From contig NZ_JACCBJ010000001.1 in NCBI RefSeq assembly GCF_013408745.1, positions 682,001-746,000 of the forward strand: a stretch of 64,000 bases of DNA, in the 5' to 3' direction. The notes below the pieces were generated by a model. That model was not told where the DNA came from. It searched no databases and worked only from the letters and a program-made list of their open reading frames with translations. Every line of letters starts with the position of its first letter. Positions within the stretch are counted from its first letter, which is position 1. Source of the stretch: Leifsonia soli. GTDB taxonomy: Bacteria > Actinomycetota > Actinomycetes > Actinomycetales > Microbacteriaceae. This document shows, piece by piece, positions 20,906-38,580 of this stretch. The translations under genes were made by a program, and so were the position numbers.

Positions 20906-20906
20906 G

Positions 20907-21479
20907 TCACACGCTCCGCAGCGTGTCGCGGGGAATCAGTACGCGTTTACGGAGGAATGCGTCGGGCACGTCCTTCGGGTCCACGGTTGTGACGTACCGG
21001 GAGCCGGTGAAGACAGTCGGAACGTCGAGCGGCTCGGTCGCCGAGACCCAAAGAGGGATCGGTGAGCTGGTCTCGCGCAGATGGTGCTCTGTCACCGCCG
21101 CGAGGGCGGCGTCGAACAGTCGACTGCCGGTCGGCTCCGGGGGGAAGGCGGCGAGCACGACCCGGTTGACAGCGTCCTCCGCGCCCAGCGCGTCGTTGTA
21201 GGCGAGCCAGATGCGGAACGCCTCGGCGTCGTCGGATCCCCTCAGGGCGCGTCGGATTCCTGCGCTCACCTCGAGCGCACCAGGCCGTGTCGTGGGGATG
21301 GCCGCCAACCGCGCATCCGATGCGCGGAGGATGCGGTCGAGCTTGTCGGCACGCGGTGAACGACGGCCGCTCTCGATGACCGACAGGTTGGAGGCGGCCT
21401 CACCTGTCCTCGAGGCAATGATCGTCTGCGGGATGCGCCGCGAGCGGCGTACGGATCCGGCGATCTCTGCAATCGACAT
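20907..21479 (-). CDS. HTH regulator, probable antitoxin partner
   Basis: A 190-residue protein. Residues about 1-62 form an Xre-type helix-turn-helix (IAEIAGSVRRSRRIPQTIIASRTGEAASNLSVIESGRRSPRADKL split over two helices); the C-terminal 120 residues are an unassigned domain ending in RKRVLIPRDTLRSV. A palindrome 13-28 bases before its ATG suits autorepression. It is followed after one base by the nucleotidyltransferase gene. Order (antitoxin first), coupling and operator all fit a toxin-antitoxin operon. G+C is lower than the window average, suggesting transfer. Confidence 0.75.
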   Translation of the reverse strand: MSIAEIAGSVRRSRRIPQTIIASRTGEAASNLSVIESGRRSPRADKLDRILRASDARLAAIPTTRPGALEVSAGIRRALRGSDDAEAFRIWLAYNDALGAEDAVNRVVLAAFPPEPTGSRLFDAALAAVTEHHLRETSSPIPLWVSATEPLDVPTVFTGSRYVTTVDPKDVPDAFLRKRVLIPRDTLRSV

Positions 21480-21524: not shown

Positions 21525-21657
21525 CTACAGCGTGATGACGCTGACCTGGTCCTTTCCGCGGTCCTTCGCGGTCGGTGTTCTGGCAGACGATGTTGAACTC
21601 GTCGCCGCCGGAGCGGCACACCAGGTCGTCGCCGCCGACGGGATCGCGCCGGCTCAC
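21525..21657 (-). pseudogene. Possible frameshifted small gene remnant
   Basis: A GTG overlapping the stop of the KTSC gene (21654-21657) opens a frame reading DPVGGDDLVCRSGGDEFNIV and then CQNT. After that the same strand reads AKDRGKDQVSVITL then stop (21525-21527) in a second frame. This suggests one short protein with a frameshift between the parts. No family recognised; it could also be chance. Confidence 0.35.
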
Positions 21658-21881
21658 CGGGTTGCGGCCCCGGGCATCCACTCCTCGGGGTAGTGGTCGC
21701 GCACCTCGGCGTTGAAGTAGGAGCCCGCCGACCCGGCGGCGCGCAGCTCGCGCCAGACCCGCGCGGGCACCAGGAAGTAGCGGTACACCTCGCCCGACAC
21801 GAACTCGATCTCGAGCGTCCGCACCGACGGGTCGTAGCCGGCTGCGGCGATCACCGAGCTGTCGAAGGCCTCGCGTTCCAC
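21654..21881 (-). CDS. KTSC domain protein
   Basis: A 75-residue single-domain KTSC protein: SSVIAAAGYDPSVRTLEIEFVSG, then a VYRYFLVPARVWRELRAAGSAGSYFN-like core written here in parts (VYRYFLVP, GSAGSYFN) matches the family, which normally ends with a short F/Y-N segment. KTSC domains are found alone or fused to lysyl-tRNA-synthetase-like or phage proteins; their function is unclear, with RNA binding suggested. Divergent from the riboswitch/terC transcript. Confidence 0.75.
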   Translation of the reverse strand: MEREAFDSSVIAAAGYDPSVRTLEIEFVSGEVYRYFLVPARVWRELRAAGSAGSYFNAEVRDHYPEEWMPGAATR

Positions 21882-21925
21882 GTCGGCACCCTACGCCCGG
21901 CCTCCGACGGCACTAGGATGTCGGA

Positions 21926-22091
21926 AGCGAAGGGGAGTATCCCGAACGGCTCGACAACAGGTGCGAACCTGCGCGACGCCGGCGCTGTGCACGTCATCAC
22001 GGTCCGCGACGAAGGGGGCCCGGGCACAGCGGCACCATCAGGTGCGGGAGAGACTTTCGGTGGATGTCCCGCGCCCTTCGAAAGGTCCCCA
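21926..22091 (+). ncRNA. yybP-ykoY family (Mn2+) riboswitch before terC
   Basis: A 166-base leader between a -10 box TAGGAT (21914-21919) and the terC GTG. It has the 5' conserved AAGGGGAGTATCCCGAACGG segment and the 3' GAGAGACTTTCGG segment that bracket yybP-ykoY riboswitches, plus GTCATCACGG between them. This class senses Mn2+ and commonly precedes TerC/YkoY and MntP genes. GACTTTCG (22052-22059) can pair with CGAAAGGTC (22079-22087), which includes the terC ribosome site AAAGG, so translation control is likely. Recognised by eye; not run through a covariance model. Confidence 0.72.
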
Positions 22092-23159
22092 GTGCACACC
22101 GCTCTTCCCCTCTGGTTCGAGATCGGCTCCTTCGTCGTCCTCCTGCTGATCCTCGCCTTCGACCTCCTGATCATCTTCAAGAGGCCGCACATCCCGAGCC
22201 CGCGCGAGTCGGCGCTCTGGGTCGGGTTCTACGTGGCGCTCGCGCTGATCTTCGCGCTGCTGATGCTGCTGGTCGGGGATGCGGAGCACGCGGGGCAGTT
22301 CCTCGCCGGGTGGCTGACGGAGTACAGCCTCAGCATCGACAACCTGTTCGTGTTCGTGATCATCATGGGCAGGTTCGCCGTGCCGAGGAAGTACCAGCAG
22401 GAAGTGCTCATGGTGGGCATCATCCTGGCGCTGATCTTCCGCGGCGTCTTCATCCTGCTCGGGGCCGGCCTGATCGCCAGCTTCAGCGCGATCTTCTACC
22501 TGTTCGGCGCTTTCCTGCTGTGGACGGCGTTCAACCAGGCCTTCGGCAAGCACGACGACGAGGGCGCGGAGGACTCCTGGTTCATCAGGTTCGCCCGAAA
22601 GCACCTGAAGGTGTCGACCCAGTACAACGGCAACAAACTCCGCACGGTGGTGGATGGTCGCCGGATGTTCACACCGCTCATCATCGTGTTCATCGCCCTG
22701 GGCACCACCGACCTGCTGTTCGCCCTCGACTCCATCCCCGCCATCTTCGGCATCACCCAGAGCCCGTTCATCGTGTTCACGGCCAACGTGTTCGCCCTGA
22801 TGGGCCTCCGGCAGCTCTACTTCCTGCTCGGGCACCTGCTCGACAAGCTGGTGTACCTCAAGTACGGGATCGCGTTCATCCTCGCCTTCATCGGCGTCAA
22901 GTTGGTGTTCCACGCCATGCACGAGAACGAGCTCCCGTTCATCAACGGCGGCGAGCACATCGAGTGGGCGCCCGACATCAGCACCTGGACCTCGCTGCTG
23001 GTGATCGTCGGAGCCATGGTTGTCGCTACGATTGCAAGTCTGGTGAAGCTGCGGATGAGCGGCACCAGCGTCGCCGAGGCCATTCACGGCGACGAATCCG
23101 ACGAGGACGAGGCCGAGGAAACGGTCGTCGACGGCACGCAGGAGGACCCCCGCACATGA
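22092..23159 (+). CDS. TerC family integral membrane protein
   Basis: A 355-residue TerC/Alx protein with seven to nine hydrophobic segments. LSIDNLFVFVIIMGRF and GTTDLLFALDSIPAIFGIT contain the paired acidic residues that define the family, now thought to export Mn2+ or supply metal to exported proteins. The C-terminal tail is acidic (GDESDEDEAEET). GTG start at 22092 follows AAAGG, which the riboswitch can sequester. Its stop overlaps the PP2C phosphatase start (ATGA), so Mn2+ control may extend to the signalling genes downstream. Confidence 0.92.
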   Translation: MHTALPLWFEIGSFVVLLLILAFDLLIIFKRPHIPSPRESALWVGFYVALALIFALLMLLVGDAEHAGQFLAGWLTEYSLSIDNLFVFVIIMGRFAVPRKYQQEVLMVGIILALIFRGVFILLGAGLIASFSAIFYLFGAFLLWTAFNQAFGKHDDEGAEDSWFIRFARKHLKVSTQYNGNKLRTVVDGRRMFTPLIIVFIALGTTDLLFALDSIPAIFGITQSPFIVFTANVFALMGLRQLYFLLGHLLDKLVYLKYGIAFILAFIGVKLVFHAMHENELPFINGGEHIEWAPDISTWTSLLVIVGAMVVATIASLVKLRMSGTSVAEAIHGDESDEDEAEETVVDGTQEDPRT

Positions 23160-23971
23160 GCTCTGTCGTCGGCGTGACCCTCCGGAGCGACACGGGTGCG
23201 GTCCGGCACGTCAACGAGGACAGCGCTCTGGCGCAGGATCCGGTGTTCGTCGTCGCCGACGGCATGGGCGGTCACGCCCGCGGCGACCTGGCCAGCCGGA
23301 CGGCGGTGGAGAGCCTCGCACGCACGCTGCAGCCGGGCTCCCGCCCGACGCCCGACGAGGTGATCCGCGCCATCGACGAGGCGAACGCTGCCGTGCGGTC
23401 GCTCTCCGGCGCCGACGAATCGGGCGCCGCGGTGGCGGGCACGACCCTCGCGGGCATCGTCCGCGTCCGCGTGCCGGAGCTGGCGACGGAGCAGTGGATG
23501 GTCGTCAACGTCGGCGACTCGCGCGTCTACGCGTGGGACGGCCGCGCGCTGCGCCAGCTGACCGTCGACCACTCCGCTGTCCAGGAGCTGGTGGATGCCG
23601 GACTCATCACCGAGGCGCAGGCGGCGGTGCACCCGGAGCGCAACGTCATCACGCGCGCCCTCGGCGCGGAGGATTTCGTGGACACCGACAGCGAGCTGGT
23701 CGCCGAGGACGGACGGCAGATCTTCCTGATCTGCTCCGACGGCCTGACCCGCGAACTGAGCGATGGGAGGATCGCCGAGATCCTCGCCCAGGGGCCGTCC
23801 GATCCTGCCTCCGCTCTGGTGGACGCGGCGAACGAGGCCGGTGGCCACGACAACATCACCGTGATCGTGGTTGAATCGGTGACCGGGGAGGACGCAGCGG
23901 CCCCCGTCGACACGCGTGAACGCGCCGACGGCAGCGGCCGGGAGTTCGAAGACACGCAGCCGAGGGAGTAG
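23156..23971 (+). CDS. PP2C-family (PPM) Ser/Thr protein phosphatase
   Basis: A 271-residue PPM phosphatase that removes phosphate from Ser/Thr with two Mn2+/Mg2+ ions. Motifs: VRHVNEDSA at about 16-24, VVADGMGGHARGD with metal-binding Asp35 and Gly36, VNVGDSRVYAW, CSDGLTREL and the C-terminal GGHDNITVIVVE with the last metal Asp/Asn. It has no membrane segment; a short acidic tail follows the domain. Overlaps terC by ATGA, with GGAGGA upstream, and is followed after seven bases by the FHA gene. It is probably the antagonist of the kinase two genes on. Confidence 0.93.
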   Translation: MSSVVGVTLRSDTGAVRHVNEDSALAQDPVFVVADGMGGHARGDLASRTAVESLARTLQPGSRPTPDEVIRAIDEANAAVRSLSGADESGAAVAGTTLAGIVRVRVPELATEQWMVVNVGDSRVYAWDGRALRQLTVDHSAVQELVDAGLITEAQAAVHPERNVITRALGAEDFVDTDSELVAEDGRQIFLICSDGLTRELSDGRIAEILAQGPSDPASALVDAANEAGGHDNITVIVVESVTGEDAAAPVDTRERADGSGREFEDTQPRE

Positions 23972-23978
23972 GTCGTCC

Positions 23979-25270
<1,292 letters not shown>

Positions 25271-25274
<4 letters not shown>

Positions 25275-26959
25275 GGCGCATGGCCTCGCAGCCGCCCGCG
25301 CTCGACGGCTTCCACTTCATCCGGCTTCTCGGATCGGGTGGGTTCTCGGACGTCTTCCTCTACGAGCAGCAGCTGCCCAAGCGCAGCGTCGCCGTGAAGG
25401 TGCTGCTGACGGACGGCGTCGACGAGTCGGCGCGCGCGCGGTTCGTGGCCGAGGCCAACGTCATGGCCCGGCTCTCCGCGCATCCGTACATCGTCACGAT
25501 CTTCCACGCGGGTGTCGCGGGCGACGACCGCCCCTTCCTCGTCATGGAGTACTGCTCCGGTCCGTCTCTGGCCGACCGGCTGAAGCGCGAGCGGATCGGC
25601 GTCGAGGACGCCCTGCGCACCGGCGTGCGGCTGTCGAGCGCGGTCGCGACCGCGCACGCGGCGGGCATCCTGCACCGGGACATCAAGCCGGCGAACGTGC
25701 TCACTAACGCGCTCGGCTGGCCGGCGCTGACCGACTTCGGCATCGCCTCCGCGCTCGAGGAGCTCCCGGTGCACACGACGACGCTCTCGGAGCTGCGGAG
25801 CTCGCCCTCCGACACCGCGACCTCCGGCAGCCGCAGCGTGGGCCTCAGCGTGCCGTGGTCTCCTCCGGAGATGTTCTCGGACGACCCGGACCCGGACGTG
25901 CGCAGCGACATCTTCTCGCTCGCCGCGACCGTGCACACCCTGCTCGCCGGGCGCACGCCGTTCGAGGTGCCCGGGCGCTCCAACGGCACCCTCGACCTCA
26001 TGGGACGCATCGAGCGCGGGATGATCACGCCGCTCGACCGGCCGGACGTCCCTGCGTCGCTGACCGCGGTCCTGCGCCGGGGCATGGCGACCCGCCGGGA
26101 GGACCGCTACCAGACCGCCGTCGACTTCGCCCGGGCGCTGCAGCGCGTCGAGCTGGAGCTGGGCCTCGCGCCGACGAGCATCGACGTCCCGAACCTCAGC
26201 CTGGGCGATGCGCGACCCGGACCGTCCGCCGACGGCGGTGAGCAGGAGACGCGGGCGCGCTCGGTGGCCACGATCCGGGCCCAGCCCGCCGCGCCGAAGC
26301 CGGCCGATCCGCCTCCTGCGGCAGAGCCCGCCGCCTCTGCACCAGCGCATGCCGAGCCTGAGGCGACGCGCGTCCGCGGCGTCGTGCCGATCACGCCGCA
26401 GCCGTCCGCCCGCACCGGGCCGCGAGACGAGAAGCCCGCGGCGGAATCCGTGGAGGAGCACACCGTCCTCCGCTCCCGCCCGTCCGCCGACGCGGCCGAG
26501 GGGACCGGGGAGTCCGCGGAGGACGCCGCCACCGCCCCGCACGACCCGCGGCGCCGCCTGCTCGCCTGGATCGGCGCAGGCGCCGCGGCCGTCGTCGTCC
26601 TCGCGGTCGTGGCAGCCGTCGTGGTGAACCTGGTCGCGCCGCCCGCCGCATCCACCGGACCGGGCGCGCGACCCGGCGACGGCGGCAGCATCGCCGTCAC
26701 CGTCGTACCGCCTCCCGTCCTGGTCTCGGCCGTCCGCGCGCCGGACGGCGCCAGCGCCACCTTCACGTGGAAGACGGCGGACGCGCAGAAGGACGACCAG
26801 TTCACCTGGCAGCAGGAGGGCACGACCAACGGGCCGTCCGTGACGGCCGACCGGACGGTCACGCTCACGAACCTGACGCCGGGCGTCCCCGTCTGCATCG
26901 ACGTCGCGACCGTCCGGGCCGGACGCACCTCCGAGCAGCTGAAGGCGTGCGCCCCGTGA
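25271..26959 (+). CDS. Membrane-anchored Ser/Thr protein kinase (PknB type)
   Basis: A 562-residue kinase. The catalytic domain covers about 10-300: GSGGFSDVFL (ATP loop, 21-30), Lys43 in VAVKV, HRDIKPANVL with catalytic Asp137, and DFG at Asp155. The next 130 residues are a Pro/Ala/Glu-rich juxtamembrane linker. One membrane helix lies at about 430-455. The outside part is a single FN3-like domain of about 90 residues (VTVVPPPVLVSAV ... TNLTPGVPVCIDVAT), not the PASTA repeats of classical PknB. Starts in the FHA gene stop (ATGA) and shares GTGA with the FHA-HTH gene. In bifidobacterial PFNA clusters the kinase sits beside the same partner genes. Confidence 0.92.
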
Positions 26960-27717
26960 CCGCCGCGAAGCCGCTCACGGTCGAGTTCTGCGGCGAGTTC
27001 TACCGGGTCGACCCGGGAAGCGAGTTCGGGATCGGCCGAGAGGCCGAGCTGACCATCGACGACAACCCGTACCTCCACCGCCGCTTCCTCACTGTCGGGC
27101 ACGACTTCGGGATGTGGTGGCTGAGCAACGTCGGAACCCTGCTGACCGCCACGGTGACCGACGCGACGGGAACCATGCAGGCATGGCTCGCGCCCGGCGC
27201 GAAGCTGCCGATCGTGTTCCAGACCATGCACGTCATGTTCAGCGCGGGCGCGACGACGTACGACTTCACCATCTCGAGCGACGAGGACTACTTCAACACC
27301 GCGGTCCAGGTGGATGCGGCGGGCGGCTCCACCACGGTGCTCCCTGTCACGCTGACCACCAGCCAGCGCCAGCTGATCGTCGCCCTCGCCGAGGGCGTCC
27401 TCACCCAGACCGTCCCGGGACGCGGCACCATCCCGACCTCCGCCGAGGCGGCCGAGCGGCTGGGCTGGAGCATGACGACGTTCAACCGCAAGCTCGATAA
27501 CGTCTGCGACAAGCTCGACAAGCTCGGCGTCGCCGGCCTCCGTGGCGGGCGCGGCAAGCTCGCGACCAACCGCAGGGCCCGGCTCGTCGAATACGCCGTG
27601 ACCACCCGGCTGGTCGGGGTCGAGGATCTCCCTCTGCTCGACCGGCACGACGACGCGGATGTCGAGGCGGCACTTGACCCGACGGCTCCGGCGGAGGACC
27701 GTAGCAGCGACGACTGA
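26956..27717 (+). CDS. FHA-HTH protein, predicted phospho-regulated DNA-binding protein
   Basis: A 253-residue protein combining a divergent N-terminal FHA fold (about 5-95: FGIGREAELTIDDNPYLHRRF then a WWLSNVG strand) and a C-terminal helix-turn-helix (about 135-185: TTSQRQLIVALAEG, then TSAEAAERLGWSMTTFNRKL). The FHA Arg, and a His-Arg pair in place of the usual Ser-His, are visible. The gene overlaps the kinase stop by GTGA, so the kinase is the obvious modifier. A perfect palindrome 41 bases after its stop is a plausible binding site. DNA binding is inferred from the fold only. Confidence 0.8.
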   Translation: MTAAKPLTVEFCGEFYRVDPGSEFGIGREAELTIDDNPYLHRRFLTVGHDFGMWWLSNVGTLLTATVTDATGTMQAWLAPGAKLPIVFQTMHVMFSAGATTYDFTISSDEDYFNTAVQVDAAGGSTTVLPVTLTTSQRQLIVALAEGVLTQTVPGRGTIPTSAEAAERLGWSMTTFNRKLDNVCDKLDKLGVAGLRGGRGKLATNRRARLVEYAVTTRLVGVEDLPLLDRHDDADVEAALDPTAPAEDRSSDD

Positions 27718-27757
27718 GGCGCTTCCCGCGTGGCCCGGCGGGATCGGCCGGCCGCCC

Positions 27758-27775
27758 ATGGGGAGTGCTCCCCAT
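27758..27775. promoter_or_regulatory. Perfect palindrome upstream of the giant repeat protein
   Basis: ATGGGGAG-TG-CTCCCCAT, 8-bp perfect arms with a two-base centre, about 25 bases before a probable -10 TAGCGT (27800-27805). Too short and lacking a T run for a strong terminator, so an operator is the better reading; the FHA-HTH protein encoded just upstream is a candidate binder. Confidence 0.5.
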
Positions 27776-27839
27776 TCCGGACGCGTCGGGGGGTCGTGTT
27801 AGCGTAGACGCGTTTTCCGGCCCGGGGGATTGCAGAGTC

Positions 27840-30800
27840 TTGGTTTCATTGAGTACGTGGTTCCGACAGCGGAAGACGCTCGCCGTGATCACCGCACTCG
27901 CCGTGGTCGCCGGCGTCCCGCTGACGATCGCCGTCCTCCACAAGGGCTTCCCGGTCAACGCGGTCGAGCTCGACACCCGCGATGTCTGGGTCACCAACGG
28001 CGAGAAGCTGCTCGGCGGCCGTCTCAACCATCAGATCGACGAGCTGGATGCCGCGGTGACGGGAGCCAGCGCCGACCTCGACGTTCTGCAGGACGGCTCC
28101 GCCTACTTCCTCACCGACCTCCCGCACGGGACGGTCGACAGGATCGACCCGGCCTTCGTGTCCCTCGGGGGACGCATCCAGGTGCCGGAGGACTCGCAGG
28201 TCGGCTACGGCGGCACCACGCTCTCGGTGCTGGCGCCCAACGGCTCCCTGTGGGTGCTGGACGCCTCGGGCCGGCTCGACTTCGACAAGTCCAAGACCAA
28301 GCCGGTCGTGAAGGCCGGAGCCGGTGCGAAGCTCGCGGTGGCGAAGTCGGGCACCACGTTCGTGGTCGCTCCGAAGGGCAAGCGGCTGATCACGGTCGAC
28401 CGCCCGGGAGCGAAGCCCGAGAGCCGGGACTTCCCGGTGCCCGGCGCCTTCCAGGTGAGCGCGGTCGGCGACCAGGCGGTCGTTCTCGACACGCAGCGCA
28501 ACCGGATGATCACGGGCGGCGGGACCACGGTCGACCTCCCCGCGAAGGGGCTCAGGCTCCAGCAGCCGGGCCCGGACGACCGCGCCGCGGTCGTCGCGAC
28601 CTCGAACAGCCTGCTCAGCGTCCCGCTCGGGGGCGGGGCGGTCACCGCGAGCCCGGCGGGTGCGACCTCGAAGGGCGGCGCCGACGCGGTCTCGGCCCCC
28701 GTCCGGCTGGGGACGTGCTCGTACGGCGCCTGGTCGGGCTCCGGACGCTACCTGTACGCGTGCGACGGCAAGAAGCCCGTCGGCGTCGACATCGACCAGC
28801 CGGTGGCGGGCGACGACCTGGAGTTCCGGGTCAATCACGGCGTCATCGCGCTGAACAACCTGCGCGACGGCAATGCCTGGGTCGTCTCCTCCAACATGCG
28901 GCTGGTGCAGAACTGGGCGCAGCTGAAGCCCAACGACACCACGGTGCAGGGCGAGACCGGCGAGGAGAAGCCGGTCGTGCAGTCCTTCGCCGACACGCTC
29001 GCGCAGCGGACCGATCAGAACAGGCCGCCGATCGCCGTGAACGACACGTACGGCGTGCGCCCCGGCCGGTCGACGGTGCTCCACGTGCTGACGAACGACA
29101 CCGATCCGGACGGCGACGTCCTGACCATCTCCGACGTGTCGGCGATCCCTGCCGCGCAGGGCGTCCTGCAGCTCGTCGAGGGCGGTCGCGCCATCCAGTT
29201 CACGCCGAAGGACGGCCTGAGCGGCACGATCTCGTTCCGCTACTCGGTCGACGACGGCCGCGGCGGGACCGCCTCCGCGCAGGTGGATGCGACGCTCAAG
29301 CAGGCGTCGGTGAACGAGGCCCCGGCATCCGCCCGATCGAGCACCGCGCAGACCGAGGTCGGCCAGTCGGTCACGTACAACGTCCTGAACGACTGGACCG
29401 ATCCGGACGGCGACGACCTCAGTCTCGTCGCGGCGTCCGCGACGACCGAGGACGACGTGCGGTTCAAGCCGAACGGCGACGTCACCTTCACCAGCAAGAC
29501 CGGTCAGGCGGGCTCCAAGGAGGTGCGGGTCACCATCTCCGACGGCCGCGCCTCCGCCACGGGCAGTCTCATCGTCACCGTGAAGCCGGCGGGCACGCTC
29601 GACCCCGTCGCCGTGACCGACTTCGCCGACGGCTTCACCGGGCGTCCCGTCGTGCTGCATCCGCTCGACAACGACCAGTCGCCGTCCGGGGAGCCGCTGA
29701 CACTGGTCGGCGCGGGGCTCGACGGCGGGAGCGGAGCGCAGGTCACCGCGGACAGCGCGCGCGGCACGATCACCGTCCGCAGCAACGCGCCGGGGGAGTA
29801 CTACCTCGTCTACACGCTCGGCGCCGGGCCGAAGACGACGACCGGGCTCGCACGCGTCGACATCGCGCCGCAGGGTGCGAGCGAGGCCCCGCCGATCGCC
29901 GTGACCGACAAGGCGTACGTCCGCCCCGGCGAGCCGACCTCCGTCGCCGTGCTCGACAACGACGTGTCGCCGTCGGGGCGCGTCCTCGCCGTGCGTTCCG
30001 TGTCGGTCGGGAAGGGCGCCGAGGATCTCAACGTCGAGGTGCTCGACAACGCCGTGGTGAAGATCACGGCGCCGACCGTCCTCACCCAGCAGGTGCAGCT
30101 CTCCTACGTCGTGTCCGACGGGATCAACGAGGCCACCGCCGGGATCACGGTGGTCCCCGTCCCGCCGCTCGTGCAGCATCAGCCTCCGGTCGCCGTGGAC
30201 GATCAGGTGCCCGTCCGGGCCGGCGACGTGGCGACCGTGGCGGTGATGCAGAACGATTACTCGCCCGACAACGCCCCCTTCACCCTCGACACGCAGCTGC
30301 GCGACGCGAGCGGTGCCGGGCAGGGTGCGACCGCCTTCGTGAGCGGCGAGAACGTGCGCTACCAGGCGCCGACCGCGCCCGGCCAGTACAACGTGGTCTA
30401 CGGCATCACGGACAAGTACGGCCAGAAGGCGCAGGCGACCGTCACCTTCGTCGTCGGCGCCCCCGACAAGGGCTCCGACCGCGCGCCGCAGCCGCAGCCG
30501 CTGACGGTGCGCGCCTTCGCCGGCTCGTCGGTGCCGGTGGAGGTACCGCTCGACGGCATCGACCCCGACGGCGACTCCGTCTCGCTCTCCGGACTGGCCA
30601 CGCAGCCGACCCTCGGCCGCATCTCCGACTCGACCAGCCGCTCGTTCACGTACGAGGCGTACCCGGACTCGGCGGGCAGCGACACCTTCACCTACGAGGT
30701 GAAGGACACGTACGGGAAGACGGCCACCGGCACGGTGTCGATCGCCGTGATCCCGCGCCCGAGCCAGGTGCGTCCGCCGATCGCGGTGAACGACCCGGTG

Positions 30801-33122
30801 CAGGTGAAGCCGGGCCGCACGATCGCCGTGCCCGTCCTCGACAACGACTCCGACCCGAACGGCTACGCGATCGCCCTCCAGAAGAAGCTGCTGCAGGTGG
30901 ACGACGGCCTGAAGGCGTCGGTGCACGGCAAGATCGTGCTCGTCACCGCACCGAAGGACGAAGGGTCGTTCGTCGTCCGCTACCAGATCACCAACGGGCA
31001 GGGCGGCGTCGCCAGCGCGTTCATCCAGGTGACGGTGACGCCCGACGCCAAGGATGTTCCCCCGACCGCCGTCGATCACGTGCTCGAGCCGGACGAGGTC
31101 GCGAACAAGCAGAGCGTCAAGGTGAACGCGCTTCAGGGAGCGACCAATCCGTCCGGTCTCGTCGACGACCTGAAGGTCGATGTCACCGGGCCGAACGCGT
31201 CGGCCGCAGACGTGGGGAAGGACGGCTCCATCACGGTGAAGCCGGGCGAGCAGCGCACCGCCATCGCGTACACGCTGACCGACACCGTCACCGGGCTGAA
31301 GGGGACCGCGTTCATCGTGGTCCCGCCCAAGGGCGACGCCACGGCCCCTCCGCGCATCAAGGACGGCCTGCCGCAGCAGATCGTCCAGGTCGACGGGTCG
31401 AAGACCTGGAAGCTCTCCGACATCCTCACCGTGCCGTCGGGCCGCGGGTACAAACTCACCGGAGCCTCCGGAGTCAGCGCGACCAACAGCTCGGGGGCAT
31501 CCTCCTACGGCGACGAGCAGACGCTGACCTTCACGGCGGCGAAGGGCTACCGCGGTCCTGCTGCGATCACCTTCAAAGTGAACGACGGGCGCGAGGCCGG
31601 ACAGAGTGCCGACCGCGTGACCACTCTGGTCCTGCCGATCACGGTGGGGGAGCCGGACCAGTCCGACGTGCCTCCGACGTTCACATCGCCCAGCGAGAAG
31701 ATCGAGCCGGGGGAGGCGCCGCTCTCGGTCGACCTGCGGGCGTCGAGCTTCCATCCCAACCCCGAGATCCTCAACAAGCTGACGTACTCCGGCGGAACGT
31801 CGTCCAACCCGAAGATCCAGTCGAACCTGAGCGGCTCGACGCTGACCCTCTCCGCGCCGCTGGGCGTGCAGCCGGGCGAGACGGCGACGGTCGCGGTGAC
31901 GATCAGCTCCGGCACGCACACGATCACCGGCACGGTGAACGTGCAGGTGGTGAGCTCGAGCCGTCCGGTCGCGACGCAGAAGAACCCGCCGCAGACGTCG
32001 GAGGTCAAGCGCGGTGAGACGGCGACGGTCACCGGCGCGTCGAGCGACGCGCAGTGGGTGAACCCGTTCCCGGGGCAGCCGCTGACGATCACCGACGCGA
32101 CGGCCCAGAGCGCGCCGGCGGGCGTCACGGTCACGCACACGGGATCGTCGATCAGCGTCAGCGCATCCTCCGGCGCCGCCATCGGGGCCGTGAACGTGGT
32201 CTACCACGTCGAGGATGCGACGAAGGACCCGAAGCGCACGGCGTCGGCCATCGGCCAGCTGCGCGTCACCATCCACGACATCCCGTCGAAGCCGAGCGCC
32301 CCGTCGAACCCGCAGGCGAGCGACGGGAAGGTCACCGTCTCGATCAAGGCCCCGGCCGACAACGGAAAGCCGATCACGCAGTACGAGGTGACGGACGGCG
32401 CCGGGCACACCGCGACGACGGCATCCGTCGGCAACGTGACGATCGGCGGCCTGACGAACGGCAAGTCCTACTCGTTCACCGTGCGCGCGCAGAACGCCGA
32501 CGGGTGGAGCGAACGCTCCGCCGGGAGCACGCCGGTCACGCCGTACGGCAAGCCGACGCAGGTGAGCGGCGTCTCCCTCCGGAGCAGCGGGAACGCGCCG
32601 AGCGATCTGACCATGAGCTGGAACGCGCTCTCGGACCCGAACGGGACGGGAGGCGGCCAGGCGACCTACTATTACCGGCTCAACGGCGGGTCGTGGCAGA
32701 CGACGACCGGCACCAGTGCGCAGGCGAACAACAAGGGGGCAGGCACCTACTCCTTCGAGGTCTACGCGTCGAACGCCGGCGGCAACAAAGGACCGACGGC
32801 GACCTCCAACAGCGTCGAAGTCAAAGACCCGCCGCCGCCGTCGCCGTCGATCGACCTGGCGAAGGGCGGGCTGAAGCCCGGGTACGCCCACAGCTACACC
32901 TACGACGTGACGCTGCACGATTTCCCCGCGAACCGGACGTTCACCATGCAGGTCCACTGCAATGGCGGCCAGCTGGGCAGCAAGTCGATCTCGACCGACG
33001 GCAACGGCTACGGCCACTACGTCGGCAACCCGAACAGCGATCTCGACCCGTGGTGCGGGTACCACGGCGTCTACGTCGTCGTGAACGGCGTGCAGAGCCC
33101 GGTCCAGGACTGGGCGCCGTGA
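27840..33122 (+). CDS. Giant surface protein with about eleven cadherin/Ig-like repeats and C-terminal FN3 domains
   Basis: About 1760 residues. A membrane helix at 12-32 (TLAVITALAVVAGVPLTIAV) anchors it or serves as an uncleaved signal. Residues 35-380 look like a beta-propeller-type domain. Eleven repeats then begin near 394, 492, 589, 683, 781, 882, 978, 1073, 1170, 1277 and 1374, each opening with (R/Q)PPIAVND-like and NDxDPDGD-like motifs as in bacterial cadherin-like/Ig domains. FN3 domains lie near 1484-1565 and 1570-1660, followed by a C-terminal domain containing two Cys. No LPXTG sorting signal. Start: TTG at 27840 (weak ribosome site) just before STWFRQRKT; TTG at 27849 is possible. 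Followed by moxR after 43 bases. Confidence 0.85.
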   Translation: MVSLSTWFRQRKTLAVITALAVVAGVPLTIAVLHKGFPVNAVELDTRDVWVTNGEKLLGGRLNHQIDELDAAVTGASADLDVLQDGSAYFLTDLPHGTVDRIDPAFVSLGGRIQVPEDSQVGYGGTTLSVLAPNGSLWVLDASGRLDFDKSKTKPVVKAGAGAKLAVAKSGTTFVVAPKGKRLITVDRPGAKPESRDFPVPGAFQVSAVGDQAVVLDTQRNRMITGGGTTVDLPAKGLRLQQPGPDDRAAVVATSNSLLSVPLGGGAVTASPAGATSKGGADAVSAPVRLGTCSYGAWSGSGRYLYACDGKKPVGVDIDQPVAGDDLEFRVNHGVIALNNLRDGNAWVVSSNMRLVQNWAQLKPNDTTVQGETGEEKPVVQSFADTLAQRTDQNRPPIAVNDTYGVRPGRSTVLHVLTNDTDPDGDVLTISDVSAIPAAQGVLQLVEGGRAIQFTPKDGLSGTISFRYSVDDGRGGTASAQVDATLKQASVNEAPASARSSTAQTEVGQSVTYNVLNDWTDPDGDDLSLVAASATTEDDVRFKPNGDVTFTSKTGQAGSKEVRVTISDGRASATGSLIVTVKPAGTLDPVAVTDFADGFTGRPVVLHPLDNDQSPSGEPLTLVGAGLDGGSGAQVTADSARGTITVRSNAPGEYYLVYTLGAGPKTTTGLARVDIAPQGASEAPPIAVTDKAYVRPGEPTSVAVLDNDVSPSGRVLAVRSVSVGKGAEDLNVEVLDNAVVKITAPTVLTQQVQLSYVVSDGINEATAGITVVPVPPLVQHQPPVAVDDQVPVRAGDVATVAVMQNDYSPDNAPFTLDTQLRDASGAGQGATAFVSGENVRYQAPTAPGQYNVVYGITDKYGQKAQATVTFVVGAPDKGSDRAPQPQPLTVRAFAGSSVPVEVPLDGIDPDGDSVSLSGLATQPTLGRISDSTSRSFTYEAYPDSAGSDTFTYEVKDTYGKTATGTVSIAVIPRPSQVRPPIAVNDPVQVKPGRTIAVPVLDNDSDPNGYAIALQKKLLQVDDGLKASVHGKIVLVTAPKDEGSFVVRYQITNGQGGVASAFIQVTVTPDAKDVPPTAVDHVLEPDEVANKQSVKVNALQGATNPSGLVDDLKVDVTGPNASAADVGKDGSITVKPGEQRTAIAYTLTDTVTGLKGTAFIVVPPKGDATAPPRIKDGLPQQIVQVDGSKTWKLSDILTVPSGRGYKLTGASGVSATNSSGASSYGDEQTLTFTAAKGYRGPAAITFKVNDGREAGQSADRVTTLVLPITVGEPDQSDVPPTFTSPSEKIEPGEAPLSVDLRASSFHPNPEILNKLTYSGGTSSNPKIQSNLSGSTLTLSAPLGVQPGETATVAVTISSGTHTITGTVNVQVVSSSRPVATQKNPPQTSEVKRGETATVTGASSDAQWVNPFPGQPLTITDATAQSAPAGVTVTHTGSSISVSASSGAAIGAVNVVYHVEDATKDPKRTASAIGQLRVTIHDIPSKPSAPSNPQASDGKVTVSIKAPADNGKPITQYEVTDGAGHTATTASVGNVTIGGLTNGKSYSFTVRAQNADGWSERSAGSTPVTPYGKPTQVSGVSLRSSGNAPSDLTMSWNALSDPNGTGGGQATYYYRLNGGSWQTTTGTSAQANNKGAGTYSFEVYASNAGGNKGPTATSNSVEVKDPPPPSPSIDLAKGGLKPGYAHSYTYDVTLHDFPANRTFTMQVHCNGGQLGSKSISTDGNGYGHYVGNPNSDLDPWCGYHGVYVVVNGVQSPVQDWAP

Positions 33123-33165
33123 CCCGCGGGCAAAACACGAACGAAGAAACCGAGGAGATGCAGCA

Positions 33166-34134
33166 GTGGCAGTGACACAGGAGCAGGCGGACTGGTTCGC
33201 CGGGGCGTTCTCGCAATTGGTGGCGAACGTCGACAAGGCGATCCTCGGCAAGGAGCACAGCATCCGCCTGGTGATCACTGCGATGCTCTCCGGCGGACAC
33301 GTGCTGCTCGAGGACGTGCCCGGCACCGGGAAGACGGTGCTCGCCAAGGCGCTCGCCAACACGGTCGAGGGCACGCAGTCGCGCATCCAGTTCACCCCCG
33401 ACCTGCTGCCGTCGGACGTCACCGGCGTCACGATCTACGACCAGTCCAGCGGCCGGTTCGAGTTCCATCCCGGGCCGATCTTCGCGTCCGTGGTACTCGC
33501 CGACGAGATCAACCGGGCGAGCCCGAAGACCCAGTCCGCGCTGCTCGAGGTCATGGAGGAGGGCGTCGTGACGGTCGACGGCGTCGGCCACCCCGTCGGA
33601 GCGCCGTTCATCGTGATCGCGACGCAGAACCCGGTGGAGCAGGCGGGAACGTACTCGCTGCCCGAGGCGCAGCTCGACCGCTTCCTGATCAAGACATCGC
33701 TCGGCTACCCCGACCACGCGACGACCGTCGACCTGCTGCTCGACTCGTCCAACCGATCGCGTGCGGCGGCCGTCCGGCCGATCATCGCCTCCGACTCGGT
33801 CACCACGCTCGCGCAGCTGGCCTCCGAGGTGCACACCGACGCCAGCGTCATGGGGTACCTCAGCGAGATCGTCACCGCAACGCGCGACGACAAGGATGCG
33901 GCGCTCGGCGTGAGCATCCGCGGCGCCCTCGCGCTCGCGCGTGCGGCGAAGACGTGGGCGATCTCGGCCGGGCGCACCTTCGTGACGCCGGACGACATCC
34001 GCGACCTCGCCCAGCCGGTGCTCGCGCACCGCGTCATCGTCGACCCCGAGTCCGAGTTCGCGGGTGTGACCGCGGCCGACGTCGTCGAGCGGGCGGTCGC
34101 GTCCGCGACACCGCCCGCCTACCGCGCGGCCTGA
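33166..34134 (+). CDS. MoxR-family AAA+ ATPase (copy 1)
   Basis: A 322-residue MoxR ATPase. Walker A DVPGTGKT at about 50-57 (Lys56), Walker B VVLADEIN, sensor-1-like ATQNPVEQ and the MoxR PEAQLDRF segment are present. MoxR proteins work as chaperones for partner proteins, often with von Willebrand/DUF58 proteins; the next gene is DUF58. GTG start eight bases after GAGGAG. It resembles copy 2 at 51636 closely in the core (ESALLEVMEE versus ECMEERQVT region), with a different C-terminal part, so the two modules arose from an old duplication or separate acquisition. Confidence 0.93.
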   Translation: MAVTQEQADWFAGAFSQLVANVDKAILGKEHSIRLVITAMLSGGHVLLEDVPGTGKTVLAKALANTVEGTQSRIQFTPDLLPSDVTGVTIYDQSSGRFEFHPGPIFASVVLADEINRASPKTQSALLEVMEEGVVTVDGVGHPVGAPFIVIATQNPVEQAGTYSLPEAQLDRFLIKTSLGYPDHATTVDLLLDSSNRSRAAAVRPIIASDSVTTLAQLASEVHTDASVMGYLSEIVTATRDDKDAALGVSIRGALALARAAKTWAISAGRTFVTPDDIRDLAQPVLAHRVIVDPESEFAGVTAADVVERAVASATPPAYRAA

Positions 34135-34175
34135 GCCGCTCCGCACCACCCCGACCCCCGCCCGCGCCCGCGCCC

Positions 34176-34202
34176 GACCCCGACCCCGACCCCGACCCCG
34201 AC
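34176..34202. repeat. GACCCC tandem hexamers between moxR and DUF58
   Basis: Four and a half GACCCC units in the 82-base intergenic gap, next to a CCCGCG doublet. Unlike the GAGCCC linker this lies outside a gene; variation in length would change moxR-DUF58 spacing. Confidence 0.8.
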
Positions 34203-34216
34203 AGGATCCTGCAGCC

Positions 34217-35533
34217 ATGACCACCGACAGCCCCGCTCGCGGACGCCGTCGTCGCGCACCCGGCGCCGACCAGGCGCGCATCGCTGCGGAGCTCGTCGCC
34301 GGCGCGGTCGCGCGCGCGACCGGTGCGGTGACGTCCCGGATCGCGCCTCTCGGGCGCGCGGTCGGGCGTCGTCTCGCGCCGGTCGTCGGCGTGGTGAGCA
34401 CCCTCGGCTGGATCGTGCTGGCGACCGCCGCCGTGTCGGTCGTCCTGGCGGTCTGGCTCGGCTGGGCCGAGTTCGTCTACGTCGCGGCAACGCTGCTTGC
34501 GGCCTTCGTCATCGCGGCCGCCTTCGTGTTCGGCCGCTCCACATACCGCGTCGGCATCGAGCTCAACCCCCGGCGCGTCGTCGCCGGCGGGCGGGCCCTC
34601 GGGCGGCTCACCGTGGCCAACAGCGGATCACGGCCGGTGCTTCCGACGCGGATGGAGCTGCCCGTCGGCGAAGGACAGGCCGACTTCACCATCCCGCGGC
34701 TCGCCCCGGGCGCCGAGACGGAGGAACTGTTCGCCGTTCCGACCGAGCGGCGCGCTCTGATCCTGGCCGGCCCCGCCCTGTCGGTGCGCGGCGACCAGCT
34801 GGGACTGCTGCGCCGCACCAACCAGTGGACCGAGCAGATCGAGCTGTTCGTGCACCCGAAGACGGTCCGCCTTGCCGCGACGGCGCGCGGCCTGGTCCGC
34901 GACCTCGAGGGGCAGACGACCAAGGTCATCACGGACAGCGACCTCGCCTTCCACGCGCTGCGCACCTACGAGCCCGGCGACGACATCCGCAACGTTCACT
35001 GGCGCACGTCCGCCCGGACGGGCCAGCTGATGGTGCGCCAGTGTCAAGAGACCCGCCGGTCACAGCTGCTGCTGGCCTTCGACGCGGAGCGCTCGCACTT
35101 CGCGTCCGACGACGAGTTCGAGCTGGGCGTCTCCGTGCTCGCGTCGGTCGGCTGCCAGGTCATCCGCGAGGAGACCGAGATCCGAGCGCTCTGGCAGCGC
35201 GGACCGATGCGCGTCGAGACGCCGACGGCCCTGCTCGACGATTCCTGCCGCATCCACTCGGTGGACGGGGCGCATCCGACACTCCGCGAGTTCCTGCGGC
35301 AGGCGACCCTGCGGCTGCCCGCGCCGAGTCTTGCGGTGACCGTGGTGGGCTCGCAGGTGGACGCGGCCGAGCTGCGCGGAGCATCGGCCCTGTGGTCGAC
35401 GGACACGGAGACCATCGTGATCCGTGTCGACGAGGCGGCGGAGCCGCGGCTCACCCGACTGGGGCGCTCGATGCTGATCACCGTCTCCGCGCTGCCCGAG
35501 CTGCCGTCTCTGCTGAAGCGGGCGGGCCGATGA
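34217..35533 (+). CDS. DUF58 protein (copy 1)
   Basis: A 438-residue membrane protein. A basic N-terminus, then two hydrophobic segments at about 58-105. The DUF58 domain carries its hallmark YEPGDDIRNVHWRTSARTG at about 250-268, followed by a von Willebrand A-like fold (LLLAFDAERS). DUF58 proteins are the usual partners of MoxR ATPases and are thought to be acted on by them at the membrane. The stop overlaps the next gene by ATGA. Low identity to the copy at 52705 outside the hallmark. Confidence 0.88.
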   Translation: MTTDSPARGRRRRAPGADQARIAAELVAGAVARATGAVTSRIAPLGRAVGRRLAPVVGVVSTLGWIVLATAAVSVVLAVWLGWAEFVYVAATLLAAFVIAAAFVFGRSTYRVGIELNPRRVVAGGRALGRLTVANSGSRPVLPTRMELPVGEGQADFTIPRLAPGAETEELFAVPTERRALILAGPALSVRGDQLGLLRRTNQWTEQIELFVHPKTVRLAATARGLVRDLEGQTTKVITDSDLAFHALRTYEPGDDIRNVHWRTSARTGQLMVRQCQETRRSQLLLAFDAERSHFASDDEFELGVSVLASVGCQVIREETEIRALWQRGPMRVETPTALLDDSCRIHSVDGAHPTLREFLRQATLRLPAPSLAVTVVGSQVDAAELRGASALWSTDTETIVIRVDEAAEPRLTRLGRSMLITVSALPELPSLLKRAGR

Positions 35534-37890
35534 GCGCGGCCACCGGCACCGGAGCCGGCCGCCGACGGGATGCGCGTCCCGCCGCCGCCTCCCCGGTGTT
35601 CGACACCCTGTCGGCGACGACGTGGATCGACATCGCCGTCCTGACCGGTCTCAGCCTGCTCGCCGTTGCGGGCTTCGAGCCGGCGTTCGGGCACTACGCC
35701 TTCGCGCAGGCCGCCATCGGCGGCATCGTCGTCGGCGGGGGAGTCGCGCTGCTCGGCCGGCTTCTCCGGATATCGTGGCCGCTCACCACCGTGATCGCGC
35801 TGGCCGCCTACTTCCTGTTCGGGACGGCGCTCGCGCTGCCCGGGCAGGCGCTGTACGGGGTGCTCCCGTCGCTCGACAGCCTGTCCGGCCTGGTCGTCGG
35901 AGCCGTCTTCGGCTGGTCAGACGCAGTGACACTGCAGGCCCCGCTCGAGGCACCGCCCTATGTCGCGGTGGTCCCGTACGTCGCAGGGTGGCTCGTCTCG
36001 CTCGTGTCGGTGACCCTGGCCGTGCGATGGCTGCCCCGGGTGCGGCGTCCGTCCGCCGGTCGCGCGGCGGTGCTGCTGGCCGGCCCCGTCCTGCTGCTGC
36101 TCTCGGCCATCCTGCTCGGCACCCGCGACCCGTTCTTCGCGGGGGTGCGCGGCGTCCTGTTCGCCGGGATCGCCCTGGTGTGGCTGGCGTGGCGTCGCGC
36201 GCGGTTCGCCCGCGATCGGGTCGAGACGGACTCCGGAGTCCGGCGCAGCCGGCTGCTCGGCGGCGCGGCGGTCGTGCTCGGTGCCGTGCTCGTCGGCGCG
36301 CTGGCCGGGTCCGTGCTGGCGCCGCCCGCCTCGTCGCGTTTCGTCGTCCGCGACGAGATCACGCCGCCGTTCGACCCGCTCGACTATCCGAGCCCGCTCG
36401 CGGGTTTCCGGAAGTACACGAAGGAGCTGCAGAAGACCAAGCTCTTCACCGTCACCGGGCTCAAGCAGGGCCAGGTGATCCGGCTCGCGACGATGGACAG
36501 CTACGACGGCGTCGTCTGGTCCGTCGCGTCCCCGGGAAGCGACAGCGACGCCTCCGGCGCGTTCGAACTGCTCGGCAGCACCATCCCGCGGCCGCCGCTG
36601 TTCACTGCGGGGGCATCGTCGACCGCGACCATCGACGTGCTCGGCTACTCGGATGTCTGGCTGCCGACCCTCGGCTATACCAACACGCTGACGTTCGATT
36701 CGCACACCGGACAGGACCCGGCCTCGACCGTGCGCGTCAACACGGCGACCGGCACCGCGGCGGTCACGAGCGGCGTGCGCAACGGCCTCGACTACACCGT
36801 CGGCGCGACGGCGCAGAAGATCCCGAACGACCGAGCCCTCGCCAAAGTCCCCCCGGCGAAACTGACGCTCCCGTCGGTCACCAACGTCCCGGATGTGGTG
36901 TCGGCGAAGGCCGAGGAGTACGCGGGCTCGGCCGATACGGCCATCCAGAAGCTGCGCAACATCGAGCGGTCGCTGAAGTCGCTCGGTTACCTCAGTCACG
37001 GGCGGGCGTCCGATCCGGTGCCGTCGCGTGCTGGGCAGGGCGCCGACCGCATGACCGACCTGCTGTCCAAGTCGCCGATGGTCGGCGACCAGGAGCAGTA
37101 CGCCAGCGCCTTCGCCCTCATGGCCCGGCGGCTCGGCTACCCGACCCGGGTCGTCATGGGGTTCGCCCCGAAGGTCTCCGGAGGCACCACCACCGTCACC
37201 GGCGACGACGTGACGGCGTGGGACGAGGTCGCCTTCGAGGGCGTCGGCTGGGTGCCGTTCTTCCCGACGCCGACCAAGACGGACGCGCCGAAGAACCAGA
37301 CGACGAAGCCGAAGCTCGAACCCCAGCCGCAGGTGCGCCAGCCGCCGCCCGCCGACCCGCGCGCCGACGACCTGCTGACGCCGGTCAAGACCAAGGACAA
37401 CGACCCGAAGGACAAGGCGTCCACGTTCCGTCTGCCGGTCTGGGCGTGGGTGGTGCTCGGCGTCGTCGGCATCCCGCTGCTTGCGTACTTCGTCCCGCTG
37501 CTGCTCATCGCCGCGCTCAAACGGCGACGACGGCGGAGGCGCGAGACCGCCGGACCGCCGGACCGGCGCGCCGCCGGAGCCTGGGACGAGCTGACCGACG
37601 GCTACGCCGAACTCGGCCTCGACGTCCCCGACCGCGCGACGCGTCTGCAGGCGGCCGCTGCGCTGGAGGAGCAGTCCGCCGCGCAGGATCTCCCGGTCCC
37701 CGACGGTGGGCTCCGCGACCTGGCCCGGCACGTCGACGCCGCGGTGTTCGACGGCAGTGTCGTCGACGAGGAGCGCGTGCAGCACGCCTGGACGTCGGCG
37801 GACGACGCCCTCGGCCGCGCGACCAAGGCGGCCGGGCCACTGCGCTCCCGGCTCGCGGCGTTCCGCTACCGGCGGGCACGCCGCGCCTGA
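35530..37890 (+). CDS. Transglutaminase-fold membrane protein lacking its catalytic triad (copy 1)
   Basis: A 786-residue protein: about six N-terminal membrane helices (30-265), an exported transglutaminase-like domain (about 270-580), a Pro-rich segment, one more helix at about 636-660 and a cytoplasmic DUF4129-like tail (WDELTDGYAELGLD onward). Compared with copy 2 at 54026 in the same core, the catalytic Cys is Gln521 (GDQEQYASAFALMAR), the His is Thr562 (DDVTAWDEV) and the Asp/Glu is Phe578 (WVPFFPT). All three catalytic positions are gone while the surrounding fold is kept, so it is a pseudoenzyme. ATGA overlap with DUF58. The reading frame is intact. Confidence 0.88.
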   Translation: MSAATGTGAGRRRDARPAAASPVFDTLSATTWIDIAVLTGLSLLAVAGFEPAFGHYAFAQAAIGGIVVGGGVALLGRLLRISWPLTTVIALAAYFLFGTALALPGQALYGVLPSLDSLSGLVVGAVFGWSDAVTLQAPLEAPPYVAVVPYVAGWLVSLVSVTLAVRWLPRVRRPSAGRAAVLLAGPVLLLLSAILLGTRDPFFAGVRGVLFAGIALVWLAWRRARFARDRVETDSGVRRSRLLGGAAVVLGAVLVGALAGSVLAPPASSRFVVRDEITPPFDPLDYPSPLAGFRKYTKELQKTKLFTVTGLKQGQVIRLATMDSYDGVVWSVASPGSDSDASGAFELLGSTIPRPPLFTAGASSTATIDVLGYSDVWLPTLGYTNTLTFDSHTGQDPASTVRVNTATGTAAVTSGVRNGLDYTVGATAQKIPNDRALAKVPPAKLTLPSVTNVPDVVSAKAEEYAGSADTAIQKLRNIERSLKSLGYLSHGRASDPVPSRAGQGADRMTDLLSKSPMVGDQEQYASAFALMARRLGYPTRVVMGFAPKVSGGTTTVTGDDVTAWDEVAFEGVGWVPFFPTPTKTDAPKNQTTKPKLEPQPQVRQPPPADPRADDLLTPVKTKDNDPKDKASTFRLPVWAWVVLGVVGIPLLAYFVPLLLIAALKRRRRRRRETAGPPDRRAAGAWDELTDGYAELGLDVPDRATRLQAAAALEEQSAAQDLPVPDGGLRDLARHVDAAVFDGSVVDEERVQHAWTSADDALGRATKAAGPLRSRLAAFRYRRARRA

Positions 37891-37944
37891 CGCCGCCATA
37901 TCGGAGCCCTGGACCGGTCGGCCGGTTTCCGTATAGTGGGCGGC

Positions 37945-38427
37945 ATGGACGACCGCGGATTCATCGTTCCGCCACCCGGCCTCATCCCGTCGCGACCGCC
38001 GGAGCCGACGCCGACGCCCGCGGCCGAGCGCATTGAGGCGGTCGCGCCCGGCCGGGCGCTGCCCGCCTTCACCCCGCCCGCCGGACCGAACGGCCCCGCC
38101 GCGCCCGCCCGTCCGGTCTGGCGACTCGTCCTGCCCGGCGGGCGTGTGGTCCCGCTGACCCGGGCGGTCCTCCTCGGCCGCAATCCCACCCGCGGCGCCC
38201 ATGCCGGCGATGCCGAGCCGATCGCCCTCGACGACCCGACCTCCACCGTCTCGAAGACCCATGCGCTCCTCGTGGTGGAGGGCGACACGCTGACGGTCAC
38301 CGACCTCCACTCGACCAACGGCGTCGTCGTCGCGGGCGCACGAGCGGAGCCGGGAGAACCGGCCGTCGTACCGGACGGGGCGGAACTGCTGCTCGGCGAC
38401 CTGAGCATCCGCGCGCAGTTCGCCTGA
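37945..38427 (+). CDS. Small FHA domain protein
   Basis: A 160-residue protein with a Pro-rich N-terminus (about 1-55) and a C-terminal FHA domain (55-160): LLGRNPTRG, STVSKTHALLVVEG and HSTNGVVV hold the phosphothreonine-binding Arg, Ser/Lys-His and Asn. TATAGT at 37932-37937 ends seven bases before the ATG, so it has its own leaderless promoter rather than being read only with the upstream genes. It lies at the end of the kinase/MoxR cluster and is a likely target of that kinase. Confidence 0.85.
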   Translation: MDDRGFIVPPPGLIPSRPPEPTPTPAAERIEAVAPGRALPAFTPPAGPNGPAAPARPVWRLVLPGGRVVPLTRAVLLGRNPTRGAHAGDAEPIALDDPTSTVSKTHALLVVEGDTLTVTDLHSTNGVVVAGARAEPGEPAVVPDGAELLLGDLSIRAQFA

Positions 38428-38465
38428 CGGCGGGCCCGCCGGGATCGGGTGATACCCTGTCACTC

Positions 38466-38510
38466 GTGTACGCGGGTCTTCTCCTCCTTAGCCGCCGCGG
38501 CGAGTCCTAG
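38466..38510 (+). CDS. leuL: Leucine leader peptide
   Basis: A 14-codon ORF, GTG then VYAGLLLLSRRGES stop, with four consecutive Leu codons (CTT CTC CTC CTT). CTT is rare in this DNA, so the codons should be sensitive to Leu-tRNA supply. TACCCT at 38453-38458 lies seven bases before the GTG, so translation starts at or near the first base of the mRNA. Leader peptides before leuC or leuA are known in actinobacteria. The product itself has no role beyond stalling the ribosome. Confidence 0.85.
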   Translation: MYAGLLLLSRRGES

Positions 38511-38532
38511 TCTCAGGCCACTCTCGCCGCGG
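38495..38532 (+). promoter_or_regulatory. Leucine attenuator hairpin
   Basis: Perfect 10-bp stem CCGCGGCGAG (38495-38504) with CTCGCCGCGG (38523-38532), whose left arm lies inside the end of the leader peptide gene. A ribosome stalled at the Leu codons would cover the left arm and prevent the stem. A second palindrome CCGTCGACGG (38536-38545) follows. The alternatives may act on transcription or on access to the leuC site AAGGAG at 38564-38569. Confidence 0.7.
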
Positions 38533-38580
38533 AGTCCGTCGACGGCTGATCCGTTCACACGCTAAGGAGTTCGTACGAGC

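Follow-up and report, generated by a model that had tools for sequence, protein, structure and literature searches.

A divergent manganese-riboswitch-type leader before terC and a candidate FHA-LuxR regulatory link in a PFNA-like cluster of Leifsonia soli

At positions 21914-38427 of a 64,000-nucleotide stretch of the Leifsonia soli genome (contig NZ_JACCBJ010000001.1, positions 682,001 to 746,000; the whole stretch is called the window below), terC, the gene of a manganese exporter, opens a cluster of signalling and envelope genes. The genome comprises 3.9 Mb in a single contig. A conserved structured RNA precedes terC, and a palindrome stands further down, before the gene of a giant surface protein. 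Our reading, to which we give a probability of about 0.7, is that two regulatory systems meet at this locus: a Mn2+ riboswitch controlling terC and, separately, a protein combining an FHA and a helix-turn-helix (HTH) domain, which would act through the palindrome on the cluster and on type VII secretion genes. The features are the following:

21914-21919 (+): -10 box TAGGAT of the terC promoter, a conserved TANNNT box; transcription probably starts near 21926
21924-22061 (+): putative aptamer of a divergent yybP-ykoY-type (Mn2+) riboswitch
22054-22085 (+): predicted expression platform, where the 3' strand of helix P1 can pair with the Shine-Dalgarno sequence GAAAGG (22080-22085), from a complementarity test
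22092-23159 (+): terC, Alx/TerC family Mn2+ exporter, GTG start (PF03741, 167.8 bits; TIGR03718 'R_switched_Alx', 357 bits for a cut-off of 246)
23156-23971 (+): PP2C phosphatase (domain match)
23979-25274 (+): FHA-domain protein FHA1, likely GTG start (domain match)
25271-26959 (+): Ser/Thr kinase with a weak FN3-like C-terminus
26956-27717 (+): FHA protein with a LuxR/GerE-type HTH, candidate activator (AlphaFold models, PDB comparison)
27758-27775 (no strand assigned): candidate operator palindrome ATGGGGAGTGCTCCCCAT, 18 bp, upstream of the Ig/FN3 promoter
27797-27805 (+): extended -10 element TGTTAGCGT of the Ig/FN3 gene, from motif conservation in related loci
27840-33122 (+): Ig/FN3 giant surface protein, likely TTG start (Pfam scan from 27846)
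33166-34134 (+): MoxR AAA ATPase (AAA_3 domain match)
34217-35533 (+): DUF58 protein (domain match)
35530-37890 (+): TgpA-type transglutaminase-fold protein (domain match)
37936-38427 (+): FHA protein FHA2 (domain match), with sigma-70-like promoter hexamers just before it at 37910-37937

Gene order and coordinates were verified in the window. Domain matches bear out the TerC, PP2C, FHA, kinase, MoxR, DUF58, transglutaminase and second FHA genes named in a preliminary description of this DNA, and the sequence shows the terC/PP2C overlap (ATGA, 23156-23159); the FHA-HTH gene that it named is supported by structure prediction, not by Pfam. Two details have to be corrected: the kinase does not qualify as FN3-bearing, its fn3 match reaching 18.7 bits for a cut-off of 25, and instead of eleven repeats Pfam gives the giant protein seven Big_9 stretches together with a single fn3 and a single Y_Y_Y. 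Among the matches listed, Leifsonia (L. virtsii, 77%) supplies the closest named homologues of the kinase. The likeness to the bifidobacterial PFNA cluster, also proposed earlier, is clear. According to PMC8430577, kinase, FN3 protein, MoxR ATPase, DUF58 protein and transglutaminase come in the same order and direction, with PP2C and FHA genes attached in both. The cluster studied here differs in having an FHA-HTH gene between the kinase and FN3 genes, a PP2C and an FHA gene before the kinase, terC in front, and the palindromic operator. This likeness is one of gene content and order. In bifidobacteria the role of PFNA has been inferred, in that same paper, to be host signalling.

The leader of terC is a real conserved structured RNA. 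A TerC search gave a match in 97 of 100 genomes of the family (Microbacteriaceae) and 80 loci were retrieved, of which five (L117-L121), with less than 57% identity, were handled as paralogues. Two paired motifs, GGGAGTA (a variant in L115) and GAGAC followed by T-rich letters, occur before terC in 67 of 76 loci under a relaxed pattern (window included, paralogues apart). The remaining nine lack them; four of these (L071, L080, L082, L116) show, by eye, a tRNA-like stretch just upstream. From the 69 leaders found, a count that includes paralogues, 63 were aligned (alignment A1), and a structure made of P1, P3.1, P3.2 and P4 was read from the alignment columns; covariance model R2 was built on it. 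This structure replaced an RNAalifold consensus (model R1) that missed P1 and P4, and folding of the single leader sequence was uninformative. The strands of P1 lie at about 21928-21933 and 22054-22059 in the window. With this structure A1 has 85.5% paired cells, changes on both sides in 20 of 25 pairs, and a covariation of 0.419, against 0.064-0.105 when partners are slid. Because the structure was derived from A1 this control leans in its favour, and matches of R2 outside A1 are the fairer evidence. Covariation supports a conserved core of GGGAGUA, CGUCA/CCGG and GAGAC, the motifs of the yybP-ykoY family.

That the leader is a divergent member of this Mn2+ riboswitch family is well supported by comparison of sequences. 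R2 gives it 85.9 bits (E 2.1e-17), the window itself being within the training alignment, and finds a leader of the same type before the second terC paralogue of the genome (G000:C1:2645414-2645534, 42.7 bits). Of 198 genomes from the order, 133 have an R2 match, and the model also detects the experimentally verified leader of Escherichia coli alx (34.9 bits, E 9.5e-7); it gave no match in the stretch of E. coli mntP supplied. Outside the training set its matches precede mostly terC, otherwise genes for P-type ATPases or a GDT1-like protein (downstream genes were assigned in 21 of 26 loci; of the other five, two are cut by contig ends). The preliminary description, which had named a probable yybP-ykoY leader, proposed scoring with the Rfam model RF00080 and held that a low score would speak against it. 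On this count the result is adverse: RF00080 has no match at its gathering threshold in the window, none at E<=10 in 21600-22300, and none at E<=0.001 across the whole genome. The same model, however, misses the verified alx leader at E<=10 in the stretch searched, although it scores three other loci at 35-49 bits. Whether it gives a detectable score depends on how its threshold was curated and says nothing intrinsic about the RNA, and we rejected it as a decisive test, as too insensitive; failing on both the leader and alx and positive on those three loci, it is the reason why we name the leader a divergent variant. Among 11 loci positive with RF00080, R2 matches 6 at E<=0.05 and 10 at E<=1, one of them a short partial match. 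In two draws of 296 genomes of the phylum (same handles in both where listed), R2 matches in 58 and RF00080 in 10, only one of these above its cut-off. Actinomycetota Mn2+ riboswitches would thus be under-counted by the public model, and many terC and P-type ATPase genes of the phylum therefore lack known control.

With yybP-ykoY (RF00080) and alx the leader shares P1, the GGGAGUA loop, the CGUCA/CCGG internal loop, P4, the GAGAC-UU strand and a position before a manganese exporter gene. It differs by falling below detection for the Rfam model, by a P1 of CGAAGG/CUUUCG type, and by the absence of the second hairpin in most rows of A1. A close known system appears to be the cg2157 terC leader of Corynebacterium glutamicum (PMC3890552). 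A search of the open-licence literature, judged mostly from its listings, showed no paper on yybP-ykoY in Leifsonia.

A promoter for the leader is well marked: all 66 leaders examined have a TANNNT beginning 15-26 nucleotides before GGGAGTA, and when the search window is placed 60 nucleotides further upstream as a control, the count drops to 1 of 66. As to how the RNA might act, our best guess, from modelled pairing, is a translational ON switch. The 3' strand of P1 pairs with the Shine-Dalgarno region at a mean of -7.8 kcal/mol (shuffled arms, -4.8; 26 of 65 at p<=0.05). Mean accessibility of the Shine-Dalgarno sequence is 0.49 with P1 constrained and 0.38 with its 5' strand blocked (0.44 and 0.38 in the window leader), constraining P1 bringing a rise above 0.2 in 16 leaders and a fall above 0.2 in 3. 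An intrinsic terminator scan of the plus strand, 21600-38600, found none. In a weak test, anti-Shine-Dalgarno arms swapped between leaders pair only slightly more weakly than a leader's own.

The second system is centred on the Ig/FN3 gene. The named loci of the cluster are the best 80 of at least 537 confirmed. In them, 48 of 69 Ig/FN3 genes have an extended -10 near their start, against a mean of 4.2 after shuffling, whereas no FHA1, kinase, FHA-HTH, DUF58 or transglutaminase-fold gene and a single MoxR gene has one. The listed start of the giant open reading frame (ORF), 27765, falls inside the palindrome and upstream of this promoter-like element, and TTG 27840 is the likely start. The half of the cluster from Ig/FN3 through MoxR and DUF58 to the transglutaminase-fold gene has a promoter-like element of its own, and this motif, at 27797, speaks for two or more transcription units. 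At a score of at least 12/16 the palindrome stands before Ig/FN3 in 34 of 69 loci, where 1.2 would be expected, and 12 of 73 loci have it before PP2C; before Ig/FN3 it is present in 34 of 55 loci with the FHA-HTH gene and in 0 of 14 without. Exact copies occur at 32 places in 21 of 100 family genomes, the reversed control giving none, and all 21 are among the 36 genomes that have an FHA-HTH gene. Before Ig/FN3, 23 of the 34 palindromes have a -10 box at 20-26 nucleotides (shuffled mean 1.6) and ten have boxes at 32-33; the 12 before PP2C have four boxes at 21-22 and another seven at 32-33. Among 20 sites picked for a clear target, the palindrome ends 22-24 nucleotides before the -10 in 16. The two spacing classes differ by one turn, and with the -10 beginning at -12 the palindrome would centre near -44 and -54, positions that we regard as typical of activators. 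A palindrome-like match at 1161-1178 (13 of 16), inside long ORFs, was judged to be due to chance.

Elsewhere in the genome the palindrome lies beside genes of type VII secretion character. With one mismatch allowed, a scan of the genome found exact copies at 709758 (window 27758) and 2044935, a one-mismatch copy at 2048715, and no others. Site 2044935 lies just upstream of one of the genome's two WXG100 genes (E<=0.01). Site 2048715 has on one side the gene of an EssC-like FHA-FtsK/SpoIIIE protein and on the other a small Esx-like ORF without a PF06013 match, followed by a protein with a type VII secretion system (T7SS) signal. Half of the 32 exact sites, 16, have the start of a PF06013 ORF no more than 300 nucleotides away (13 above the Pfam cut-off), while, by translation, 3 stand next to an Ig/FN3 gene and 2 next to PP2C. 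The other 11 are mixed: one, in a relative (L289), precedes a FlgN-like flagellar chaperone gene, the target at L276 resembles WXG100, judged by eye alone, four have small ORFs with no PF06013 match or only a weak relative (L277), L279 has none, and the rest have unrelated targets or none assigned. The type VII secretion-like locus of the Leifsonia soli genome was noted at L261:3798-11345 (T7SS-signal protein, small Esx-like ORF, EssC-like FHA-FtsK protein), with a WXG100 gene nearby (L261:2618-2974, minus strand).

The FHA-HTH protein, of 253 residues, is predicted to comprise an N-terminal FHA beta sandwich and a tetra-helical HTH with a recognition helix, of LuxR type; we do not claim its fold as new. 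From its sequence associations it is likely an activator acting on the palindrome, tying the kinase cluster to type VII secretion, and this link, if it holds, is the most surprising of our results. In EmbR/PknH of Mycobacterium tuberculosis, too, a transcription factor with an FHA domain accompanies a Ser/Thr kinase; the present protein differs by its N-terminal FHA, LuxR-type HTH and size. With LuxR/NarL/GerE-type regulators it shares the tetra-helical HTH and, presumably, a palindromic site near -44 or -54, the FHA domain taking the place of a receiver or ligand domain. A search of the open-licence literature, judged mostly from its listings, showed no paper on an actinobacterial link between an FHA-HTH protein, a palindrome and type VII secretion.

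These elements can be assembled as follows. The terC leader, an Actinomycetota-type yybP-ykoY Mn2+ riboswitch transcribed from its own promoter, would when bound to Mn2+ retain in P1 the strand that otherwise pairs with the Shine-Dalgarno sequence, TerC being produced at high Mn2+. Where terC and PP2C overlap, as in the window, part of this response may pass to the phosphatase. Kinase and PP2C would set a phosphorylation state read by the FHA-LuxR-type protein which, binding ATGGGGAGNNCTCCCCAT just upstream of -10 boxes, would activate the Ig/FN3 gene together with WXG100 and type VII secretion genes elsewhere in the genome. The complete chain, in which a kinase/phosphatase-gated activator drives an Ig/FN3 wall protein and type VII (WXG100/EssC-like) genes from one palindromic site (about -44/-54) in Microbacteriaceae, the riboswitch feeding the phosphatase arm in Leifsonia, Humibacter and a few others, is put forward tentatively, at a little under even odds. 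Through the palindrome and its candidate activator, the PFNA-like kinase cluster gains a concrete output that can be tested, namely a surface protein together with type VII secretion genes; if true, type VII secretion in these actinobacteria would also have a named transcriptional switch.

How far the riboswitch reaches into the cluster can be read in several ways. The preliminary description had tied Mn2+ status to Ser/Thr signalling, and a single riboswitch-governed transcript from terC through PP2C, FHA1 and kinase to the FHA-HTH gene would account for the ATGA overlap, for the close packing as far as 27717, and for the absence of any extended -10 in the 400 nucleotides before PP2C, both in the window and in the 7 overlapping named loci. 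We find this unlikely: the overlap is restricted to 7 of the 43 named loci with both genes (Leifsonia, Humibacter, a metagenome-assembled genome and Microbacterium sp. STN6) and 7 of the 21 retrieved loci where they stand side by side, 29 of 36 gapped named loci have an extended -10, TGNTANNNT, before PP2C (shuffled mean 0.73), 35 of the 80 named loci show no terC in the retrieved stretch (7 of these, cut by contig ends, hold less than 3 kb upstream), and the platform is probably translational. A separate promoter between the two genes, which the preliminary description took as contrary evidence, is thus indicated in gapped relatives, not in the window's genome. As a general promoter of the cluster this motif was rejected, since it is present in no more than 2 of the 30 clusters that lack terC. 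Mere inheritance of position, with the riboswitch acting on TerC only, comes close to an even bet, and is compatible with the FHA-HTH/palindrome half of our explanation. Separate promoter motifs in relatives agree with it, as do six genomes with both (G001, G002, G033, G043, G053, G085), where the cluster-type transglutaminase-fold gene is distant from terC or sits on a different contig; it fits less well with terC being retained on the same strand in 45 of the 80 named loci (44 with an R2 match), and with the overlap being found in that part of the TerC tree to which the window belongs, where one starred set of nine, the window among them, takes in 6 of 7 overlapping rows (L064 is outside; bootstrap values are not settled). 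Taken with the motif pattern, this clade suggests that the PP2C promoter motif was lost or moved there, which seems to leave the terC promoter and riboswitch upstream. Because the platform looks translational, with no terminator-like site, direct control would end at terC unless ATGA coupling reaches PP2C. Riboswitch control of PP2C is therefore plausible only where the genes overlap, and coupling of Mn2+ to the kinase is possible in the window's clade, not in general; the earlier claim of such a link is weak.

The palindrome might, for its part, be bound by a different regulator merely travelling with the FHA-HTH gene. Binding by the FHA-HTH protein is indeed deduced from co-occurrence, and 6 of the 36 genomes with the gene have no site within one mismatch, which weighs against our explanation; the association before Ig/FN3, the gene's presence in every genome with an exact palindrome and the predicted LuxR-type HTH make a different regulator improbable. 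Nor do we put much weight on a ligand other than Mn2+. Variants may shift specificity, and Mn2+ is assigned by family likeness, but with R2 finding alx and with TerC, P-type ATPase or GDT1-like proteins encoded downstream, such a change of ligand seems very improbable.

Upstream of the terC promoter, directly and divergently, lies a KTSC-domain gene (PF13619, 82 bits; 21660-21881, minus strand). Beyond it, at 20342-21479 on the minus strand, an HTH gene and a DUF6036/AbiEii-like nucleotidyltransferase gene resemble a type IV toxin-antitoxin pair. This pair sits between a tRNA (20169-20241) and terC, and some relatives have a tRNA a short way upstream of terC.
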